A stretch of 64,000 bases of DNA from Prosopocoilus inquinatus (lineage: Eukaryota; Arthropoda; Insecta; Coleoptera; Lucanidae): assembly GCA_036172665.1 (NCBI GenBank), contig CM069873.1:32974001-33038000 (forward strand), in the 5' to 3' direction. Every line of letters begins with the position of its first letter. The first letter of the stretch is position 1. A program made the translations under genes and the position numbers. This document shows positions 9,960 through 29,392 of the stretch, one piece after another. The notes below the pieces were generated by a model. It had not been told where the DNA came from and made no database searches. It saw nothing but the letters and a program-made list of their open reading frames with translations.

Positions 9960-9961
9960 TG

Positions 9962-12535
9962 TGAAGATTCAGGTGGTGAAAGACTGGCCAACTCCCAGAA
10001 ATAAACACCAAATAAGGAGTTTCCTTGGCCTGTGCACTTACTATCGGCGCTACGTTCCTGGATTTGCAGACATTGCTAAGCCGTTGACAAAACTCACTGA
10101 AGAAGGTCGTCCATTTGAATGGGACCAACAGTGTCAAATTGGTTTTGAACAACTAAAGCAGTACTTGATTAGTGCTCCTATTCTGAGTTATCCTCTCCCG
10201 GAAGGCAAGTTTGTCGTGGACACAGATGCTAGCAACGTTAGGATTGGTGGCGTACTCTCCCAGATACAAGAGGGGCAAGAGAAGGTGATCGGCTACTTCA
10301 GTAAAGTTGTATCAAAGCCGGAACGAAACTATTGCGTCACAAGAAGGGAATTGCTAGCTGTCGTAAAAACGACAGAACATTTCTACAAATACTTGTGTGG
10401 TAGACGGTTCCTCCTGAGAACCGACCATGCCGCTCTAAAATGGCTTCTACGTTTCAAGAACCCAGAAGGGGAAGTTGCACGATGGATCGAGCGACTTCAG
10501 GAGTACGATTTTAAAATTCAGCATCGGGCAGGAACTAGCCATCGAAATGCCGATGCTTTGTCGAGAAGACTGTAAGCACTGTAGTCGTTTGGACGAGAAA
10601 GTAGCCACGACTGCGAGGACAGCCATTGTCGACGACAAATGGCAAGGCGAAGAACTGCGAAGAGACCAGGAGAACGACCCGGATTTGAAATTAGTGCTAG
10701 AGTGGAAAAGTAGGGACGCGAGGCCTACCTGGGAAGAGGTAGCACCATGTACACCGCCAGTAAAATCATACTGGGCGCAGTGGGACTCCATAGTGTTGGA
10801 TCGTGGTCTTCTGAGACGAAGCATAGGGAATCAGGAAGGCATGGAACAGAACACACAGTTACTAATCCCCAAGAATAGGGTGCCAGAAGTTCTGAGGGAA
10901 CTTCACGGTGGAACTTCGGGAAGGCATCTGGAAGTTAAGAAGACTATGGAGAAGGTGCGCGAAAGATTTTACTGGGTGAACTGCAAGGAAGACGTGAAGG
11001 ATTGGTGAAGAAAGTGTGCAGTCTGCGCAGCCAGTAACGGTCCCCACAGGCGGGGTAAGGCCCCTATGAGACAGTACAACGTTGGAAGTCCTTTTGAGAG
11101 AGTTGTCATCGATGTAGCCGGCCCGTTTCCAGAAACGAATGGTGGAAACAAGTACATCGTCGTGGTAATAGACTACTTTAGCAAGTAGGTTGAAGCTTAC
11201 GCCCTACCTAACCAAGAAGCAGTCACTATTGCGGAAGTCCTTGTCAGGGAATGGATCAGTCGGTATGGTGTACCTATGGAACTGCATTCAGACCAAGGAA
11301 GGAACTTTGAATCGGCCTTGTTCAAGAACGTGTGTACTCTGCTCGGCGTACGAAAAACTAGAACAACTGCACTCCACCCACAGTCGGACGGAATGGTGGA
11401 AAGGTTCAATAGAACCATCAACCGACATTTGTCCAAGGTCGTTTCCGATCATCAGAGGGACTGGGACACGTACATCTCCCTGTTTCTAATGGCATACCGC
11501 TCGTCCGTTCATGAGACAACACGGGAGACTCCCGCGAAAGTAGCATTCGGGCGAGAGCCGAGACTGCCCTGCGACCTGAAGTTTGGTGTGAAGCCTGGCG
11601 AAGTCTCTCCCGACGAAGATTACGTGAGCAAATTACGCAGGAAAATGGATGACATCCACAACCAAGTGCGTCACAATATACAGACGGCCAGCGATCGGAT
11701 GAAGGAGCACTATGACATCAACGCTCCACACGGGGGATACCAACCTGGAGCACTGGTCTGTCTTTATAACCCCCAAAGACGTCGAGGCCTCTCCCCAAAA
11801 TTGCAGACATCTTGGGAAGGTCCTTACAAAGTGATGAAACGGATCAACGACGTCGTTTACCGCATCAAGAAGGTCCCCTATGGCAAACCCAAAGTAATCC
11901 ACTTCAACCGGATAGCCCCTTACCATGGAGAAGGAGATGAAGGGACAGTACAAAGGGCGCAAGTTTCCGAAGTGAACTTCGAAACCTTCATGTCTCATCA
12001 CGCCGAAGGAAGCAAGGCACGGTTTGGAGTGACCACGGAGAAGCAACAAGATCTCTTTAAAGTGCCACTGGAGTACAGTCTGGCCCACTGCGTAGCAGAA
12101 GACCTGAAAATGTCCAAAGGAATCGCTCAGGTGTTTAGGAAGAAATTTGGCCAAATCGAGGAGCTACGAAGACAGCATCCCATGGTAGGCAAGAGCTTGC
12201 AGATCATTGATTCGACGGCAGATCGGAGGCGCCACGTGCATTATTTAGTCACTAAGAAGACATCAAGCGGTAAACCTGACTATCAAAGTATGTGCAGAGC
12301 CCTATATAGCCTGAGGAGACAGCTAATAGAGAACCATCAGATGAAGTTAGCCATCCCCAAATTGGGCTGCGGATTGGACGGACTAGACTGGAGAGTAATT
12401 CGAAGCATGCTGGAAGTCATCTTCCACAGAACGGGAATTGAAGTCCTAGTCTGCAGCCACCACCCACAGGCAACAGTCAGCAACAGCAAAACCGTAGACT
12501 GCTACTTCTTCCAGACGGGAAGTTGCAAGAATGGT
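9962..12535 (+). pseudogene. Ty3-type retrotransposon copy A, 3' part (RNase H, integrase, macrodomain)
   Basis: Continues copy A after the inserted transposon. RNase H: FVVDTDASN and REL. Integrase: His/Cys finger, LHSDQGRNFE and MVERFN carrying catalytic Asp and Glu, GPY module (EGPYKVMKRINDVVYRIK). The TARG1-like macrodomain follows (about 12060-12460: SLAHCVAEDLKMSKGIA, YLVTKKTSSGKPDY, PKLGCGLDGLDW), then VDCYFFQTGSCKNG, where the match to copy B ends at 12535 in the middle of the CCCH finger. Lesions: a 14-bp deletion near 10570 (repeat-mediated, GAAGA), TGA near 11006 in the integrase finger (Cys codon in copy B) and TAG near 11187 (Trp codon in copy B). The macrodomain stretch has no lesion and differs from copy B at very few residues. 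Confidence 0.93.
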
Positions 12536-12924
12536 GGTTATGTAATATTTCAAATGTGAATTGTAATTACACACATTGCATTGTAATTGAAGTACAAATT
12601 TTTGATGATTTTTCCAGAACTACATGTAATATTACTTAACAATTTTGTAAAAAAATCAATTACTACAGCTTCTTGTAATTTTATATTTTACTTTGTGAAA
12701 TTACAAACCTAAAAATAATTACACAATTATGAGTAATATTACATTATAAATAAATGGTTACTGGGTAGCCATTTATTTTTAGTGTAAATTTACATATTTC
12801 TTTTTACAGTGTACATATAACACTAGCGGCACGGACAACCTTTCCGGACCGCACTGTATATATTATATTATTAGCTTTTTGTCACCGTAGACAATAGGCA
12901 TCTAATTTAACAACTAAGAACCAG
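12536..12924. other. AT-rich intergenic sequence
   Basis: No gene seen. Contains several short inverted motifs of the kind GTAATATTAC and AATTACA, perhaps a decayed MITE, but no bounded element could be defined. Confidence 0.4.
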
Positions 12925-18852: not shown

Positions 18853-19156
18853 TGTTACGTTTCTAGGGTTTAAATTTATTTAAACGAATAAAACACTCGA
18901 TAAAAACTTAACCGTAATTTAATAAAGCTTAAAAACTAATTTATTTGTAACAATTTATTTACACACTAAAAATCTAACTCCGGGCGATTTTATATCATTT
19001 GCTGCCGTCTGGAATTCTCTACGCTGGAAGATTCGAGTTTGTTCCATCGCCGGAAAAGTCTAGGCTGTTCGATGTAGACACCGGTGGCGTGGCAGCCAAT
19101 GACGCATAACGAACCGACTTCTTGACGCCTTGAGCTAAGCCGGGTGGCGCCCCACA
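18853..19156 (-). repeat. 3' LTR of Ty3 copy B
   Basis: 304 bp, plus-strand start TGTTACGTTTCTAGGG and end CCCCACA (TG...CA). It lacks 42 bp present in the other LTR (between AATCTAAC and TCCGGGCG), probably lost between short AAC repeats; otherwise only about two differences are visible. The pol reading frame runs into it and stops at 19019. Confidence 0.95.
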
Positions 19157-22100
19157 CTGCCCCCTTCTTAAAAACGTTTCGTCTCGAAATGTTCCTGGTG
19201 ATAGTCTTGAAGGAGGGTGTCGGAATCTACATGCTGACCCATTCTTGCAACTTCCCGTCTGGAAGAAGTAGCAGTCTACGGTTTTGCTGTTGCTGACTGT
19301 TGCCTGTGGGTGGTGGCTGCAGACTAGGACTTCAATTCCCGTTCTGTGGAAGATGACTTCCAGCATGCTTCGAATTACTCTCCAGTCTAGTCCGTCCAAT
19401 CCGCAGCCCAATTTGGGGATGGCTAACTTCATCTGATGGTTCTCTATTAGCTGTCTCCTCAGGCTATATAGGACTCTGCACATACTTTGATAGTCAGGTT
19501 TACCGCTTGATGTCTTCTTAGTGACTAAATAATGCACGTGGCGCCTCCGATCTGCCGTCGAATCAATGATCTGCAAGCTCTTGCCTACCATGGGATGCTG
19601 TCTTCGTAGCTCCTCGATTTGGCCAAATTTCTTCCTAAACACCTGAGCGATTCCTTTGGACATTTTCAGGTCTTCTGCTACGCAGTGGGCCAGACTGTAC
19701 TCCAGTGGCACTTTAAAGAGATCTTGTTGCTTCTCCGTGGTCACTTCAAACCGTGCCTTGCTTCCTTCGGCGTGATGAGACATGAAGGTTTCGAAGTTCA
19801 CTTCGGAAACTTGCGCCTTTTGTACTGTCCCTTCATCTCCTTCTCCATGGTAAGGGGCTATCCGGTTGAAGTGGATTACTTTGGGTTTGCCATAGGGGAC
19901 CTTCTTGATGCGGTAAACGACGTCGTTGATCCGTTTCATCACTTTGTAAGGACCTTCCCAAGATGTCTGCAATTTTGGGGAGAGGCCTCGACGTCTTTGG
20001 GGGTTATAAAGCCAGACCAGTGCTCCAGGTTGGTATCCCCCGTGTGGAGCGTTGATGTCATAGTGCTCCTTCATCCGATCGCTGGCCGTCTGTATATTGT
20101 GACGCACTTGGTTGTGGATGTCATCCATTTTCCTGCGTAATTTGCTCACGTAATCTTCGTCGGGAGAGACTTCGCCAGGCTTCACACCAAACTTCAGGTC
20201 GCAGGGCAGTCTCGGCTCTCGCCCGAATGCTACTTTCGCGGGAGTCTCCCGTGTTGTCTCATGAACGGACGAGCGGTATGCCATTAGAAACAGGGAGATG
20301 TACGTGTCCCAGTCCCTCTGATGATCGGAAACGACCTTGGACAAATGTCGGTTGATGGTTCTATTGAACCTTTCCACCATTCCGTCCGACTGTGGGTGGA
20401 GTGCAGTTGTTCTAGTTTTTCGTACGCCGAGCAGAGTACACACGTTCTTGAACAAGGCCGATTCAAAGTTCCTTCCTTGGTCTGAATGCAGTTCCATAGG
20501 TGCACCATACCGACTGATCCATTCCCTGACAAGGACTTCCGCAATAGTGACTGCCTCTTGGTTAGGTAGGGCGTAAGCTTCAACCCACTTACTAAAGTAG
20601 TCCGTTACCACGACGATGTACTTGTTTCCACCATTCGTTTCTGGAAACGGGCCGGCTACATCGATGGCAACTCTCTCAAAAGGACTTCCAACGTTGTACT
20701 GTCTCATGGGGGCCTTACCCCGCCTGTGGGGGCCGTTACTGGCTGCGCAGACTGCACACTTTCTGCACCAATCCTTCACGTCTTCCTTGCAGTTCACCCA
20801 GTAAAATCTTTCGCGCACCTTCTCCATAGTCTTCTTAACTCCCAGATGCCCTCCCGAAGTTCCATCGTGAAGTTCCCTCAGAACTTCTGGCACCCTATTC
20901 TTGGGGATTAGTAAGTGTGTCTTCTGTTCCATGCCTTCTAGATTCTCCATGCTTCGTCTCAGAAGACCACGATCCAACACTATGGAGTCCCACTGCGCCC
21001 AGTATGATTTTACGGACGGTGCACATGGTGCTACCTCTTCCCAGGTAGGCCTCGCATCCCTGCTTTTCCACTCTAGCACTAATTTCAAATCCGGGTCGTT
21101 CTTCTGGTCTCTTCGCAGTTCTTCGTCTTGCCATTTGTCGTCAACTATGGCTGTCCTCGCAGTCGTGGCTACTTTCTCGTCCAAACGACTATAGTGCTTA
21201 CAGTCTTCGGCACAGGGTCTTCTCGACAGAGCATCGGCATTTCGATGGCTAGTTCCTGCCCGATGCTGAATTTCAAAATCGTACTCCTGCAGTCGTTCGA
21301 TCCATCGTGCAACTTGCCCTTCTGGGTTCTTGAAACGGAGAAGCCATTTTAGAGCGGCGTGGTCGGTCCTCAGCAGGAAGCGTCTACCATACAAGTACTT
21401 GTAGAAGTGTTCTATCGTTTTTACGACGGCTAGCAATTCCCTTCTTGTGACGCAATAGTTTCGTTCCGGCTTTGATACAACTTTACTGAAGTAGCCGATC
21501 ACCTTCTCTTGCCCCTCTTGTATCTGGGAGAGTACGCCACCAATCCCAACGTTGCTAGCATCTGTGTCCACGACGAATTTGCCTTCCGGGAGAGGATAAC
21601 TCAGAATAGGAGCATTAATCAAGTACTGCTTTAGTTGTTCAAAGCCAATTTGACACTGTTGGTCCCATTCAAATGGACGACCTTCTTCAGTGAGTTTTGT
21701 CAACGGCTTAGCAATGTCTGCAAATCCAGGAACGTAGCGCCGATAGTAAGTGCACAGGCCAAGGAAACTCCTTATTTGGTCTTTATTTCTGGGAGTTGGC
21801 CAGTCTTTCACCACCTGAATTTTCACAGGGTCCACGGCGATTCCATTTCCATTAACGATGTGCCACAGGTAATTCACTTCCTTCTGGAACAGGTGACACT
21901 TCTTGAGGCTAAGCTTTAGTCCAGCTCCGCGAAGCCGCTGGAACACTCCTTCCAGGTTCCTTAGGTGGTCGTCGAACGTCTTTCCCACGACAATTATGTC
22001 ATCAAGGTACACCATGCACGTTGTCCAGGACAGACCTTTCAGAACCGTCTCCATTAACCGCTCGAATGTCGCTGGGACATTACATAACCCGAATGGCATC

Positions 22101-22666
22101 ACTGTGAATTGCCACAGATCCATTCCAATGGAAAACGCCGTCTTTTCTCGATCTTCGGGCGCCAGCTCCACTTGCCAATATCCACTCTTTAAGTCCAAAG
22201 TTGAGAAGATCTTTGAGCCGGCCAGGGTGTCCAGGGTATCATCAATCCGTGGCAGGGGATAGCTGTCCTTCTTGGTGACATTATTGAGTAACCGGTAGTC
22301 TACACAGAACCTGGTGGACCCATCCTTCTTCTTCACAAGCACTACTGGTGACGCCCACGGGCTGCTTGATGGTTCTATCACATTATCCTTTTCCATCTCG
22401 CGAATAATGCGTTCCGCTTCCTCACGCTTCGCCAACGGTAATCGCCTTGGAGCTTGACGGATAGGTCTTTCTTCTCCAGTCTCTATTTTGTGTTTCACGA
22501 CATCAGTTCTTCCCTTGGATCCATTTTCTACCTCGAATACATCTTGATAACGGCCGATCAGATTCTTTGCTTTTGTCTTCTGGTCTGGAGTCAATTTATG
22601 AGCTGTTGACATAACCATTTCCCATAACTTCATTGGGACTTTCGGCTTCTGGCACGTTTGTTTCAA
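19019..22666 (-). CDS. pol: Pol polyprotein: RT, RNase H, integrase, TARG1-like macrodomain, CCCH finger
   Basis: A 1215-residue open frame. Approximate domains: RT 75-285 (KKDGSTRFCVDYRLLN, FSTLDLKSGYWQV, YLDDIIVVG near 219); RNase H 360-485 (FVVDTDASN); integrase His/Cys finger 600-645 (HDGTSGGH..., CRKCAVC); integrase core with Asp in VAIDVAGPF (about 666), Asp in LHSDQGRNFE (about 726) and Glu in MVERFN (about 763); GPY module 905-940. Ty3 integrases usually end near a GPY or chromodomain, but here the chain continues into a macrodomain (about 980-1115), a CCCH finger (about 1130-1150) and a tail whose last 45 or so residues are encoded by the 3' LTR. The upstream protease is cut off by a one-base deletion at about 22783 with a compensating insertion near 22642. 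Replication occurs by reverse transcription in particles and nuclear integration. Confidence 0.95.
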   Translation of the reverse strand: MKQTCQKPKVPMKLWEMVMSTAHKLTPDQKTKAKNLIGRYQDVFEVENGSKGRTDVVKHKIETGEERPIRQAPRRLPLAKREEAERIIREMEKDNVIEPSSSPWASPVVLVKKKDGSTRFCVDYRLLNNVTKKDSYPLPRIDDTLDTLAGSKIFSTLDLKSGYWQVELAPEDREKTAFSIGMDLWQFTVMPFGLCNVPATFERLMETVLKGLSWTTCMVYLDDIIVVGKTFDDHLRNLEGVFQRLRGAGLKLSLKKCHLFQKEVNYLWHIVNGNGIAVDPVKIQVVKDWPTPRNKDQIRSFLGLCTYYRRYVPGFADIAKPLTKLTEEGRPFEWDQQCQIGFEQLKQYLINAPILSYPLPEGKFVVDTDASNVGIGGVLSQIQEGQEKVIGYFSKVVSKPERNYCVTRRELLAVVKTIEHFYKYLYGRRFLLRTDHAALKWLLRFKNPEGQVARWIERLQEYDFEIQHRAGTSHRNADALSRRPCAEDCKHYSRLDEKVATTARTAIVDDKWQDEELRRDQKNDPDLKLVLEWKSRDARPTWEEVAPCAPSVKSYWAQWDSIVLDRGLLRRSMENLEGMEQKTHLLIPKNRVPEVLRELHDGTSGGHLGVKKTMEKVRERFYWVNCKEDVKDWCRKCAVCAASNGPHRRGKAPMRQYNVGSPFERVAIDVAGPFPETNGGNKYIVVVTDYFSKWVEAYALPNQEAVTIAEVLVREWISRYGAPMELHSDQGRNFESALFKNVCTLLGVRKTRTTALHPQSDGMVERFNRTINRHLSKVVSDHQRDWDTYISLFLMAYRSSVHETTRETPAKVAFGREPRLPCDLKFGVKPGEVSPDEDYVSKLRRKMDDIHNQVRHNIQTASDRMKEHYDINAPHGGYQPGALVWLYNPQRRRGLSPKLQTSWEGPYKVMKRINDVVYRIKKVPYGKPKVIHFNRIAPYHGEGDEGTVQKAQVSEVNFETFMSHHAEGSKARFEVTTEKQQDLFKVPLEYSLAHCVAEDLKMSKGIAQVFRKKFGQIEELRRQHPMVGKSLQIIDSTADRRRHVHYLVTKKTSSGKPDYQSMCRVLYSLRRQLIENHQMKLAIPKLGCGLDGLDWRVIRSMLEVIFHRTGIEVLVCSHHPQATVSNSKTVDCYFFQTGSCKNGSACRFRHPPSRLSPGTFRDETFLRRGQCGAPPGLAQGVKKSVRYASLAATPPVSTSNSLDFSGDGTNSNLPA
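19157..19170 (-). other. Polypurine tract of Ty3 copy B
   Basis: Minus-strand AAGAAGGGGGCAG directly before the 3' LTR (TGTGGGGC...). It primes plus-strand DNA synthesis. Because pol reads through it into the LTR, the tract is also protein-coding (RRGQ). Confidence 0.85.
19215..19280 (-). other. CCCH zinc finger at the Pol C-terminus
   Basis: Residues VDCYFFQTGSCKNGSACRFR followed by His give the spacing C-x7-C-x5-C-x3-H, typical of the CCCH fingers that bind single-stranded RNA. It is encoded between the macrodomain and the polypurine tract. In copy A the match ends inside it. An RNA-packaging or RNA-targeting role is an inference. Confidence 0.85.
19310..19735 (-). other. TARG1/OARD1-like macrodomain in Pol
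   Basis: The segment SLAHCVAEDLKMSKGIAQVF, FRKKFGQIEELRRQ, YLVTKKTSSGKPDY, LAIPKLGCGLDGLDW lines up end to end with human TARG1 (OARD1), a macrodomain enzyme that removes ADP-ribose from Asp/Glu side chains. The two residues known to act in human TARG1, Lys84 (TKKRASHKP) and Asp125 (GCGLDRLQW), have counterparts here (first Lys of TKKTSSGKP; Asp of GCGLDGLDW). The MGAG of the ADP-ribose loop is MSKG here. Length about 135 residues, normal for the family. Both copies in the window keep it intact. Activity is predicted, not shown. Confidence 0.88.
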
Positions 22667-22780: not shown

Positions 22781-23443
22781 TCAACAACATTTCCCAACGA
22801 GGACTCCTCTTCCAATGCTTTGATCATCAGTATTAGGTTCAACCATAATGACTTGCCCATCTTGAAAAACACCGTCCAGTTTTGCGTCGACGATAACCTC
22901 AGTCCTGCTGGGTAATACAACGTCTTCAGCGAGGACTACTCGAGCGGCCACGTCCCCTCGTTGATGTAGAACCAACTCCTCATTATTGACCGCCATCACG
23001 CCACGCTTTAAGTCCAATTGGAACCCGTGGGCACACATGACGTCCGTGCCCAAAATTGCCTCGTCCTCTATATCTGCCACCAGTGCACGGTGTTTTATTG
23101 GAGTTGAACCAATGGTGATGATAACCTCTACTTCACCGTGGACAGTTGCTGATGTTCCAGTTGCAGTTTTCAGTCTCCACTTGGTCGGCTCGGTGCGTCC
23201 AGATGACTTAATGACGTCGGGTCTTAGGATGGTCTTCGTCGCACCCGTATCCAACAACATGGTGTGAGGAATGTCATCAATGGTAACATCCACGAAGACA
23301 CTGCTGGTTAACTGCCGTAGGGATATTACGTGGTTGGCTTTCGTCTTTGGGGGCCTTGGAATACGGGTCGACGTTTGCCCCTCTGCACCGACCCGGCTTA
23401 GTTTAACTGTGGCTTCCTTGGATCCTGTCTGGGTTTTGGACAT
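22781..23443 (-). CDS. Retroviral-type aspartic protease region of Pol
   Basis: Open frame with the active-site motif LLDTGATKTIL (one Asp per monomer; the enzyme works as a dimer) and the second conserved stretch AILGTDVM followed by HGFQLDLK, which matches the flap and ILG(x)D region of Ty3 proteases. It processes Gag and Pol. The natural entry is not the Met at 23443 but a probable -1 ribosomal shift at 23401-23407 in the Gag stop region. In this copy the frame ends early at LVGKCC-stop because one A is missing from an A-run at about 22783 compared with copy A; RT lies in the same register beyond a second, compensating indel. Confidence 0.88.
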   Translation of the reverse strand: MSKTQTGSKEATVKLSRVGAEGQTSTRIPRPPKTKANHVISLRQLTSSVFVDVTIDDIPHTMLLDTGATKTILRPDVIKSSGRTEPTKWRLKTATGTSATVHGEVEVIITIGSTPIKHRALVADIEDEAILGTDVMCAHGFQLDLKRGVMAVNNEELVLHQRGDVAARVVLAEDVVLPSRTEVIVDAKLDGVFQDGQVIMVEPNTDDQSIGRGVLVGKCC

Positions 23444-25144: not shown

Positions 25145-25489
25145 TGTTACGTTTCTAGGGTTTAAATTTATTTAAACGAATAAAACACTCGATAAAAACT
25201 TACCGTAATTTAATAAAGCTTAAAAACTAATTTATTTGTAACAATTTATTTACACACTAAAAATCTAACTTCGACGATCGCTGTTAGAATTCGACTGACT
25301 GGTGAGTCAACTCCGGGCGATTTTATATCATTTGCTGCCGTCTGGAATTCTCTACGCTGGAAGATTCGAGTTTGTTCCATCGCCGGAAAAGTCTAGGCTG
25401 TTCGATGTAGACACCGGTGGCGTGGCAGCCAATGACGCATAACGAACCGACTTCTTGACGCCTTGAGCTAAGCCGGGTGGCGCGCCACA
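25145..25489 (-). repeat. 5' LTR of Ty3 copy B
   Basis: 345 bp, TG...CA ends, with the same sequence as 18853-19156 plus 42 extra bp (from TTCGACGATCG to GAGTCAAC). Contains ATATAAAA on the minus strand (25321-25328) as a plausible TATA box for the genomic transcript. Confidence 0.95.
25321..25328 (-). promoter_or_regulatory. TATA-like box in the 5' LTR
   Basis: Minus strand ATATAAAA in a GC-richer stretch of the LTR (TCGCCCGGAG nearby). Position within the LTR fits a promoter; transcription start not determined. Confidence 0.45.
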
Positions 25490-25789: not shown

Positions 25790-26375
25790 AGCTGATTAAG
25801 GTAATTATAAGCTGAATAGATGTTTCTTCAGCTTATTTTAAAGCCTTTATATGACCATTTGTCCGTTAGTTCTATAACAAGCTGAAGAAACATTACCACA
25901 GACAATTTGGAAGCCTTTATATAACCATTTACATGTTAGTCGTATAACAAGCTGAAGAAACGTTACTACAGCTAATTTGGAAGCCTTTATACAACCATTT
26001 GCATTTAGTCATACAACAAGCTGAATAAACGACACTGCAGCTAGTTTGGAAACCTTTATACAACCATTTGCATTCAGTCATATAACAAGCTGAATAAACG
26101 ACACTGCAGCTAGTTTGGAAACCTTTATACAGCAATTTGCATTTGGTCGCATAACAAGCTGAATAAACGTCACTGCAGCTAGTTTGGAAACCTTTATACA
26201 ACCATTTGCATTTAGTCATATAACAAGCTGAATAAACGTCACTGCAGCTAGATTGGAAAACTTTATACAGCAATTTGCATTTGGTCGCATAACAAGCTGA
26301 ATAAACGTCACTGCATCTAGTTTGGAAACCTTTACACAACCATTTGCATGTTAATCGCATAGCTCGGAAATTATA
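25790..26375. repeat. Minisatellite with 69-bp unit
   Basis: About eight units carrying AACAAGCTGAATAAACG, CACTGCAGCTAGTTTGGAAA, CCTTTATACAACCATTTGCA. The inner units (about 26020-26350) are close copies at 69-bp spacing; the left ones are diverged. Because 69 is a multiple of three, the minus strand shows a 143-residue open frame of 23-residue Cys-rich repeats; I treat that as a by-product. Confidence 0.9.
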
Positions 26376-26499
26376 ATTTTAAACTAATGCTTTTATTGTC
26401 AAATACAACCTCTTTGAAAAATAACTTACGACAAATTAATTTCAAGCAAACCGTGACAGATGCTCAGACGAAGTTTTATTTTTATTGGTGTTCGTCGAA
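26376..26499. other. Spacer
   Basis: Short AT-rich spacer before the foldback element; nothing seen. Confidence 0.4.
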
Positions 26500-29392
26500 C
26501 CACCGATGAGAAGTTAGCAATAAAATTCCAGCAATAAAATTATGAAATTTCAAAACGCTGCCACCGCTAAAATAACGATCACAGATCAATAATATTTAAT
26601 CTATTACAGAGAGTATAATGTGTAGATTCCCCTCATATGAAGAAACTGAAAAAATATTTGATATTAAGTTAACTACGGCTATTTAAACCAGCATAAGTCA
26701 TTATTCATATATCGCACCAAAACAATTGCTTTCACTGAAAATTTTCACGTAGTCATAAAGTAAACATACATATCTATTTAATAATGCCTTCAGAAAGTTT
26801 TAGACGGTTGATTTGAAGTAATTAGAAATTAATTAAAAGTGGCGCTCGGACCAATGAAACAGTATCAATTTCAAATGTTCATAACTTTTCTCAGAGAACT
26901 TGCATAAAAATTCTGTTTGCAGAATATTAAAGCACGGATCGAAATCTATCGTTTAAACCACCCTCTGAGTTTTAGCCGGTTGATTTGAAGTAATTAGAAA
27001 TTAATTAAAAGTGACTCTCAGATCAATGAAACAGTACCAATTTAATAAATTGTGACGTTTGCAACAATAAAAAAAAACTTTACTTTGCGCTTTGTGAATT
27101 ATGGCCAAGATCTGAAGTTTGCATTGAGTACACAGGGTGTTCAAAGTTTTTGTTATAGGCACACAACTACTTCATTATTATCGAAGGTACGAAGTCGTTC
27201 GAATTGGCAAAAATATACTGCTTTTACTCAAGATTAGTAATTAAGCATTGTCCATGCGTAAGCTGACCGGATCAGTCAGATTACGGTGGAATTCTCGATA
27301 TGTTCCTCTTCTGATGAGGCATCAATTAGGGCCGAAATCGCTATGAGAACCCTGTTGCAATTTAGCTGAATTGTAGCAGATTTTTAATGATTTTTTTTAA
27401 TGATGAGTACAAATGTCGCAATAACTCCTTCATTATTTGGTCTGAGGTTAAGTAGTAAAGAATACTTTATATTTAGAATTTACTATTCTTTCGTTTCACA
27501 ACAAAAAATACGGAATATTTCATTAAAGAAAAGTTTACATGTGAAGATATTATGAGAACGCGATGCGTAATGATTTTTTTGATATCGCCGCTTAATTGTT
27601 GGTTCATTGTTGCTGATGATTTGAACGATTTCGTACCTTAATAATTATGAAGTTATTGTATGTATACAGTGTTTCCCAAAAGTAACGGATAAATTCTATG
27701 AAATGGTTAAGAAAAGGAAGAATTCTCAGGTCGATTTTTATTTTTAAATCATCATTTGAGGATGTAATTTTCAATCCCCCATCTCTAAGCTATAACAACC
27801 CCAACTTGAAAAATTCAAGTAGCAAAGTACCTAAATAACACTTTTAATGCTGAAAATTTGTTAAAACTTGCGGTTTATATTGGATTTTCTCTTAATTCAG
27901 AAGGGCATTATTCGAATCGTGAATCGATATTTTTAGACATCTATCTCCAACCATCTTTTCTATTTGCAAATTTTTCTTCTTCCCACATATTATTTGTGCA
28001 TCATAGTATTTTTATTTAAGCTTTAATCATTCGCGATTACTGAGAATCACTGGGACACACTCTATATTGGAAACTATGATCACCCTATACAGACTGTTTA
28101 AAAATAACTCGACACTATTGCAAACTATTTTATTATTAAAGTTACAGATACAATTAAATTAGCAAACTATTAGTATCTTTCGTCCTGATTGCAACGATGC
28201 ATTCAAAAAAAAAACAATTGAACATCGCATTTATGAAATAAAGGGAAAAATAACACTTTTTTTTAAATAGAACACAATGTAAAATTAATATTGTTATACT
28301 CTTGTCAATGTCACAACTTATTACTTTGTAATAATTGGTACTGTTTCATTGGTCCGAGCGTCACTTTTAATTAATTTCTAATTACTTCAAATCAACCGGC
28401 TAAAACTTAGAGGGTGGTTCAAACGATAGATTTCGATCCGTGCTTTAATATTCTGCAAACAGAATTTTTATGCAAGTTCTCTGAGAAAAGTTATGAACAT
28501 TTGAAATTGGTACTGTTTCATTGATCTGAGAGTCACTTTTAATTAATTTCTAATTACTTCAAATCAACCGGCTAAAACTCAGAGGGTGGTTTAAACGATA
28601 GATTTCGATCCGTGCTTTAATATTCTGCAAAGAGAATTTTTATGCAAGTTCTCTGAGAAAAGTTATGAACATTTGAAATTGGTACTGTTTCAATGATCTG
28701 AGAGTCACTTTTAATTAATTTCTAATTACTTCAAATCAACCGGGTAAAACTCAGAGGGCGGTTTAAACGATAGATTTTGATCCGTGCTTTAATATTCTGC
28801 AAACAGAATTTTTATGCAAGTTCTCTGAGAAAAGTTATGAACATTTGAAATTGGTACTGTTTCATTGATCTGAAAGTCACTTTTAATTAATTTCTAATTA
28901 CTTCAAATCAACCGGCTAAAACTCAGAGGGTGGTTTAAACGATAGATTTCGATCCGTGCTTTAATATTCTGCAAACAGAATTTTATGCAAGTTCTCTGAG
29001 AAAAGTTATGAACATTTGAAATTGATACTGTTTCATTGGTCCGAGCGCCACTTTTAATTAATTTCTAATTACTTCAAATCAACCGTCTAAAACTTTCTGA
29101 AGGCATTATTAAATAGATATGTATGTTTACTTTATGACTACGTGAAAATTTTCAGTGAAAGCAATTGTTTTGGTGCGATATATGAATAATGACTTATGCT
29201 GGTTTAAATAGTCGTAGTTAACTTAATATCGAATATTTTTTCAGTTTCTTCATATGAGGGGAATCTACACATTATACTCTTTGTAATAGATTAAATATTA
29301 TTGATCTGTGATCGTTATTTTAGCGGTGGCAGCGTTTTGAAATTTCATAATTTTATTGCTGGAATTTTATTGCTAACAATTCTCATCGGTCG
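26500..29392. mobile_element. Foldback-type transposon with long inverted repeats built of 172-bp tandem units
   Basis: Left arm 26500 to about 27050 is the inverse of about 28320-29392 (outer shared blocks ACCGATGAGAA and TTAGCAATAAAATTCCAGCA). The right arm contains a tandem array: GGTACTGTTTCA or its variant starts at 28337, 28509, 28681, 28853 and 29024, a 171-172-bp period; the left arm holds one to two units. The centre (27050-28320) has no recognisable gene. Inverted arms made of tandem repeats are the hallmark of FB-type elements in Drosophila; kinship to FB is structural only. No target duplication could be fixed. Confidence 0.85.

Follow-up and report, generated by a model that had tools for sequence, protein, structure and literature searches.

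Why would a Ty3-type retrotransposon carry an ADP-ribosyl hydrolase domain at the end of its Pol protein? The question is raised by an element in a 64,000-nucleotide stretch of the Prosopocoilus inquinatus genome (contig CM069873.1, positions 32,974,001 to 33,038,000), the whole of which we call the window. An initial annotation had placed a TARG1-like domain at the Pol end, at 19310..19735. The present analysis bore this out at 19313-19741 of the minus strand, and confirmed that the domain is a TARG1/OARD1-type macrodomain fused to a Ty3-type Pol.

A 268-residue query was searched with phmmer against PDB sequences. Human TARG1 chains were matched at 5.7e-29 to 1e-28 over query residues 22-168, the next macrodomain being 5m3i (DarG by its title) at 1.2e-4. 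The generic Macro model of Pfam scored below its own cut-off (17.3 versus 22 bits), so that the TARG1-specific match bears the identification, and the domain may for the same reason escape routine annotation. An AlphaFold2 model made from 38 sequences had pLDDT block means of 91-98 along the macrodomain (blocks 2-16) and of 43-61 in the finger region. When the model was compared using Foldseek, ranks 1-8 were TARG1 chains (4j5s_C: E 1.6e-15, rmsd 1.2, TMt 0.95), followed by DarG at 8.6e-10. The comparison with OARD1 that the initial annotation had proposed therefore returned TARG1 as the top match by both routes, and its claim that the catalytic residues are kept also stood, as the alignment pairs the first Lys of a TKK motif and the Asp of GCGLD with residues of the TARG1 chain. 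Among relatives, the first Lys of TKK is conserved and the second is variable. The human TARG1 residue numbers 84 and 125 were adopted from the initial annotation. A review gives the residues as Lys84 and Glu125 (PMC7050489), but the aligned TARG1 PDB chain has Asp, not Glu, at the second catalytic place. A chance match, or a mere neighbouring gene, was ruled out by the TARG1 match, the fold, and the multi-copy matches in the genome.

Examination of the strand assignment revealed that the plus-strand frame translated at these coordinates has stops throughout, and that the element occupies the minus strand. Protease and Pol are in the same frame with a stop between them, and Gag is in a different frame, as judged from the frame coordinates. 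Reverse transcriptase (RT) was located by a profile built from related copies, and integrase by Pfam. The order of protease, RT, RNase H, and integrase, found also in the family copy L063, the long terminal repeats (LTRs), and a polypurine tract are those of Ty3/gypsy elements. Approximately 37 residues separate Integrase_p58_C from the macrodomain, and the Pol frame crosses the polypurine tract to terminate within the 3' LTR (Table 1). The Pol fusion was thus correctly described at the outset, while the CCCH zinc finger, the run of the frame into the 3' LTR, and the copies beyond two had been omitted. A second copy of the element lies inverted at 9960-12534 and is 96-98% alike. No target-site duplication was seen in the element flanks, and no tRNA primer site was identified. 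The window pieces scanned gave no Pfam match to a chromodomain at the integrase C-terminus at E values up to 1, and no F-type env follows pol in the window element, where Pol enters the 3' LTR.

The window finger has the C-x7/8-C-x5-C-x3-H pattern, and its best named phmmer matches in the PDB set are RNA-processing proteins, from which it is likely an RNA binder. Whether the finger might replace a zinc knuckle absent from Gag was considered; no CCHC pattern was present in the first 520 residues of loci L063 and L064, unlike the related record P0127, which holds a knuckle-like stretch. P0127 itself is labelled Erysiphe pulchra, a mildew; this 5.4-kb contig holds a beetle-type macrodomain-bearing element, and insect contamination is the likely explanation.

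Table 1. Features of the window element, of its second copy, and of related loci in the same genome (coordinates without a locus name are those of the window).
Feature	Coordinates	Strand	Remarks
Pol open frame	19019-22666	minus	1215 aa from mechanical TTG start; RT, RNase H, integrase, macrodomain, CCCH finger
5' LTR, 181 bp	25309..25489	minus	direct repeat of 18976-19156, 1 mismatch/181
3' LTR, 181 bp	18976..19156	minus	contains Pol stop at 19019
Gag-like frame, 441 aa	23403..24728	minus	open frame; weak PNMA match in Pfam (E 0.0095, below cut-off)
Aspartic protease frame	22781..23443	minus	Asp_protease_2 4.1e-10 (Pfam)
Integrase core	20402..20683	minus	rve 4.3e-13 (Pfam)
Integrase_p58_C (GPY-like) module	19853..19954	minus	4.8e-11 (Pfam)
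TARG1/OARD1-type macrodomain	19313..19741	minus	phmmer to TARG1 5.7e-29; AlphaFold2 model and Foldseek to 4j5s
Macrodomain catalytic codons	Lys 19517-19519, Asp 19394-19396	minus	alignment with TARG1 chain
CCCH zinc finger	19211..19285	minus	zf-CCCH 1.9e-6, above Pfam cut-off; C-x7-C-x5-C-x3-H
Polypurine tract, within Pol frame	19157..19174	minus	purine-rich run immediately preceding 3' LTR
Second-copy macrodomain	12032..12460	plus	frame 11276-12559; protein 99% identical; frame ends inside CCCH finger
USP-family ubiquitin hydrolase	L058:247-1191	minus	after integrase, macrodomain-bearing Ty3
USP-family ubiquitin hydrolase	L059:7246-8892	plus	after integrase, macrodomain-bearing Ty3
Baculo_F-like envelope frame	L057:7706-9412	plus	7e-31; after macrodomain-bearing pol, T2a

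Elsewhere in the window, two kinds of tandem repeat were observed, a 172-base array that has inverted partners and a repeat of 69 bases (28294-29094, 26513-29377, 25867-26418).

A genome search with mosquito OARD1 as the query gave 151 matches (best 150 of 1284 candidates scored), and 15 loci were inspected. Four Ty3 lineages in this one genome bear the domain, three of them beyond that of the window, and the domain occupies two positions in Pol. The order is integrase-macrodomain-CCCH in lineage T1 (the window and L063) and integrase-macrodomain in T3 (L055 and L065), with an additional tail in L055. The macrodomain precedes RT, lying between protease and RT, in T2a (L056, L057, L058, L059, the second element of L060, and L062) and in T2b (L051, L052, and the fragments L053 and L054); L051, L053, and L058 show a protease domain upstream of it. 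A tree of 18 RT rows split T1 and T3 from T2a and T2b (99/99; the tree is unrooted, and a program warning points to long branches that join), and domain position thus agrees with RT lineage. L066 is without a macrodomain, its frame stopping about 10 residues past p58_C; its row, consisting of part of RT and the sequence following, groups with T1 with modest support (84/76).

Additional domains were found in T2a. A USP-type ubiquitin hydrolase follows integrase in L058 (UCH 1.1e-56) and L059 (1.9e-27, cut by the locus end), and comparison with USP2 revealed that the L058 domain retains the Cys and His boxes. The Baculo_F-like frame of L057 suggests an errantivirus-like element. Neither the tail that follows the macrodomain in L055 nor those that follow integrase in L051 and L052 had a Pfam match; in the PDB-set search the L051 tail had no match, and the L055 tail a single match at E 0.81.

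Macrodomains of the window type were abundant in the 650 Mb genome. The best 150 of 1377 candidates were 97-100% identical, and one of the 150 had an internal stop, but as these are the top-scoring share they are uninformative on decay in general. Copies in one open frame occur on several chromosome-sized contigs. Two protein-database searches returned 28 hits, some of them cellular, and 147 hits, of which the best 120 were used. Related records came from Aromia, Molorchus, Exocentrus, Gonioctena, Leptinotarsa, Diabrotica, Harmonia, and Pyrocoelia, all of which we take to be beetles, the best of each being 49-57% identical. An Integrase_p58_C label stands on records from seven of the eight, and the Pyrocoelia record opens with a p58-like stretch. 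The search for the fusion in insects that had been suggested therefore yielded records of eight beetle species, and the fusion is not confined to two copies. Aromia predominates among the matches listed (best 120 of 147). Most of the public records go by the name hypothetical protein, and one by OARD1-like. Many Aromia records of the window element family also carry a precomputed SAP domain (PF02037).

Both catalytic residues were kept in 36 of 37 aligned element macrodomains, these rows having been picked for diversity, and in all 15 rows taken as cellular (2 from unnamed contigs). When motifs were counted more loosely in the 144 non-cellular proteins among the matches listed, short or cut records included, 139 had the Lys motif, 141 the Asp motif, and 130 the finger. 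Median identity among 12 aligned T1 rows, the window included, was 0.56 for the macrodomain, 0.53 for the finger, 0.32, 0.38, and 0.39 for the linkers, and 0.82 for the integrase core, and the CCCH pattern was conserved in 12/12. For three pairs of T2 families (dS approximately 1.0-1.6), macrodomain dN/dS was 0.141, 0.192, and 0.185, with bootstrap upper limits of 0.243, 0.338, and 0.331. Judged from these substitutions, the values show that the macrodomain is under constraint in the T2 families. These are the 3 of 10 macrodomain pairs that were relied on; 2 others were saturated. Pairs set aside were L056/L057 (0.338) and L055/L065 (0.490), with very little divergence, and, with dS above 2, L056 paired with L058 (0.153), L059 (0.133), and L060 (0.179). 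RT was tighter than the macrodomain (pN 0.072 versus 0.246 for L058/L059). Neutral evolution of the domain, raised by the initial annotation as a possible objection, does not apply between T2 families (0.14-0.19), and the window's own family lay outside this comparison.

The element had been supposed to have captured a host TARG1 gene. Locus L061 holds a host tandem pair of OARD1-like genes bearing introns, and none of the RT, RNase H, or integrase pieces matched in the 7.3 kb examined there, by which a host OARD1 mis-annotated as an element was ruled out. The macrodomain tree was made from 50 of 52 rows (2 were dropped), and a third row was dropped before the approximately unbiased (AU) tests. 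T1 (97/96), T2a (100/96), and T3 (100/100) were recovered as clades, and T2b was not recovered as one clade. The host pair fell outside the element clades, beside T1 and T2a with weak support, and capture of this host's own OARD1 is not supported. The AU tests rejected none of the groupings of all element macrodomains together (p 0.311), all T2 (0.176), T1 with T3 (0.323), or T2b with T3 (0.223), and captures may accordingly have numbered one, with subsequent movement and loss, two, or more. Three 200-base RT windows were without difference between L051 and L052 (approximately 3201-3800 of L051), the rest being 49-90% alike. This indicates recombination by which element families exchange segments, and the macrodomain could move likewise.

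What, then, might the domain do for the element? TARG1 cleaves the esters that ADP-ribose forms with acidic residues and also removes ADP-ribose from nucleic-acid ends (PMC7050489). We favor, at roughly even chances, the reading that the C-terminal part of the element's Pol is an active TARG1-type hydrolase of ADP-ribosyl esters, which would protect the element. The CCCH finger would hold the macrodomain near RNA or the integrase complex, where the macrodomain would strip ADP-ribose laid by host PARPs on element proteins, surrounding chromatin, or nucleic-acid ends. Possible targets are thus integrase, Gag, chromatin, and nucleic-acid ends, and removal of ADP-ribose would protect replication or expression of the element. 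Selection would then retain such an eraser for its activity, irrespective of its place in the polyprotein. The four lineages share the enzyme and not its Pol neighbour, and on this ground we prefer removal of a host modification to targeting as the role of the domain.

Observations from other systems bear on this reading. In PARP-1-null flies, 8 mobile elements were differentially expressed, 5 up and 3 down; a further ten rose, though with statistical support that was weaker or absent, and nine of these ten belong to the gypsy superfamily (PMC7712786). TARG1-like folds were also found in viral proteins, the top hit being Kadipiro virus VP8 (42% identity) and several others coming from thrips-associated viruses. 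Coronavirus Mac1 is described as an eraser of host ADP-ribosylation acting in viral counter-defence (PMC10499221). The USP-type domain of one lineage is a second modification eraser, which we count for the eraser reading. A broader proposal, possible but doubtful, is that beetle Ty3 elements gained ADP-ribose erasers repeatedly, and in one lineage a deubiquitinase too, and so counter host restriction based on ADP-ribosylation, as some viruses do.

Several considerations weigh against an active, protective hydrolase. The authors of the fly study allow that the PARP-1 effect is possibly indirect (PMC7712786). The existence of the macrodomain-less L066 means that a Ty3 element as such can do without the domain. 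In the Diabrotica record P0144, Lys is changed to Arg and Asp to Glu with the CCCH finger intact, and in that lineage the fold may only bind or may be decaying. The informative dN/dS pairs are all from T2, with none from the window lineage T1. Within-family pN/pS values for singletons and shared changes were 0.07 and 0.03 for the macrodomain (30 copies), 0.48 and 0.57 for the integrase piece (22 copies), and 0.29 and 0.37 for the finger region (26 copies); these were not used, because selection of the 30 copies by macrodomain similarity biases them.

The position of the domain directly after Integrase_p58_C in T1 and T3 would suit a macrodomain that binds ADP-ribosylated chromatin at the integrase C-terminus and steers integration as chromovirus chromodomains do. 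The ALC1-like class does include readers (PMC7050489), and in the Diabrotica row the fold persists although the catalytic residues are changed. However, T2a and T2b have the domain between protease and RT, and a place in Pol that varies in this way speaks against a domain that only reads integration sites, as does retention of the catalytic residues along with the fold in 36 of the 37 rows. We therefore consider such steering unlikely, and chromatin at integration sites, one of the initially proposed targets, has become less likely as a general site of action. By analogy with a possible role of dUTPase against uracil in some retroelements, the domain might instead repair ADP-ribosylated RNA or cDNA ends, or clear ADP-ribose esters, during reverse transcription. 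Such nucleic-acid ends are a TARG1 substrate (PMC7050489), in some other LTR elements a dUTPase-like domain lies between protease and RT (PMC6431247), where T2 has its macrodomain, and the neighbouring finger likely binds RNA. L066 nonetheless lacks the domain, and the sequence data give no sign of the substrate used; a housekeeping role of this kind seems to us improbable.

That the domain is a captured host exon of no function to the element would fit with L066 and with the loss of catalytic residues in the Diabrotica row. It is made very improbable by dN/dS values well below 1 for the three T2 family pairs, by the retained catalytic residues, by the presence of the domain in several lineages, and by a macrodomain more alike than its linkers. 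The names of the public records, mostly hypothetical protein and one OARD1-like, might point to an error of annotation or assembly, such as a host OARD1 adjoining an element. Set against this are the many single-frame copies on several chromosome-sized contigs, the same fusion in other beetle assemblies, and the separate, intron-bearing locus of the host OARD1-like genes, and the chance of an artefact is negligible. Should the broader proposal above hold, ADP-ribosylation would be an arm of insect transposon defence, one that we have not seen described as such. The candidate eraser belongs to abundant retrotransposons with many copies that are nearly identical, and it is found in four lineages, which place it at two different points of Pol. 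Restraint of insect transposons by ADP-ribosylation is thereby directly testable, and a natural comparison is offered by lineages that have the domain, that lack it, or that have it with altered catalytic residues.

Among known systems, the macrodomains of alphavirus nsP3 and coronavirus nsP3 (Mac1) have the macro fold in common with the window domain, with a Foldseek match weaker than that to TARG1. The catalytic residues of viral macrodomains differ from those of the TARG1 type. In chromoviruses, integrase carries a chromodomain as an extra domain after its C-terminal module. The window element likewise has an extra domain after integrase, but it is a macrodomain, and the pieces scanned had no chromodomain match. 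Extra domains in LTR elements are already described, including the dUTPase-like domain between protease and RT, which occupies the T2 place with a different enzyme (PMC6431247). A search of the open-licence PMC literature for Ty3 or other LTR elements with a macrodomain gave no description of a Ty3 Pol of this kind among the listings and excerpts covered, which agrees with the initial statement that no such family was known. That statement needs qualifying, since fish epsilon-like endogenous retroviruses have macro-domain open reading frames, after Basta et al. 2009 (PMC4977317). Those too are retroelements with a gained macrodomain; by their description (PMC4977317) they are additional reading frames in vertebrate retroviruses, whereas the beetle Ty3 domain is of TARG1 type, fused to Pol, and found at two positions. 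TARG1-like macrodomains occur as well in 17 IMG/VR viral contigs (L067-L083), and in the DNA examined 0 of the 17 matched RT, RNase H, integrase, or protease. The closest counterpart is TARG1/OARD1 (C6orf130) of the ALC1-like class, which the window domain matches in sequence, predicted fold, and the positions of Lys and Asp. The cellular enzyme is free-standing, whereas the window domain lies within a retrotransposon Pol beside a CCCH finger.
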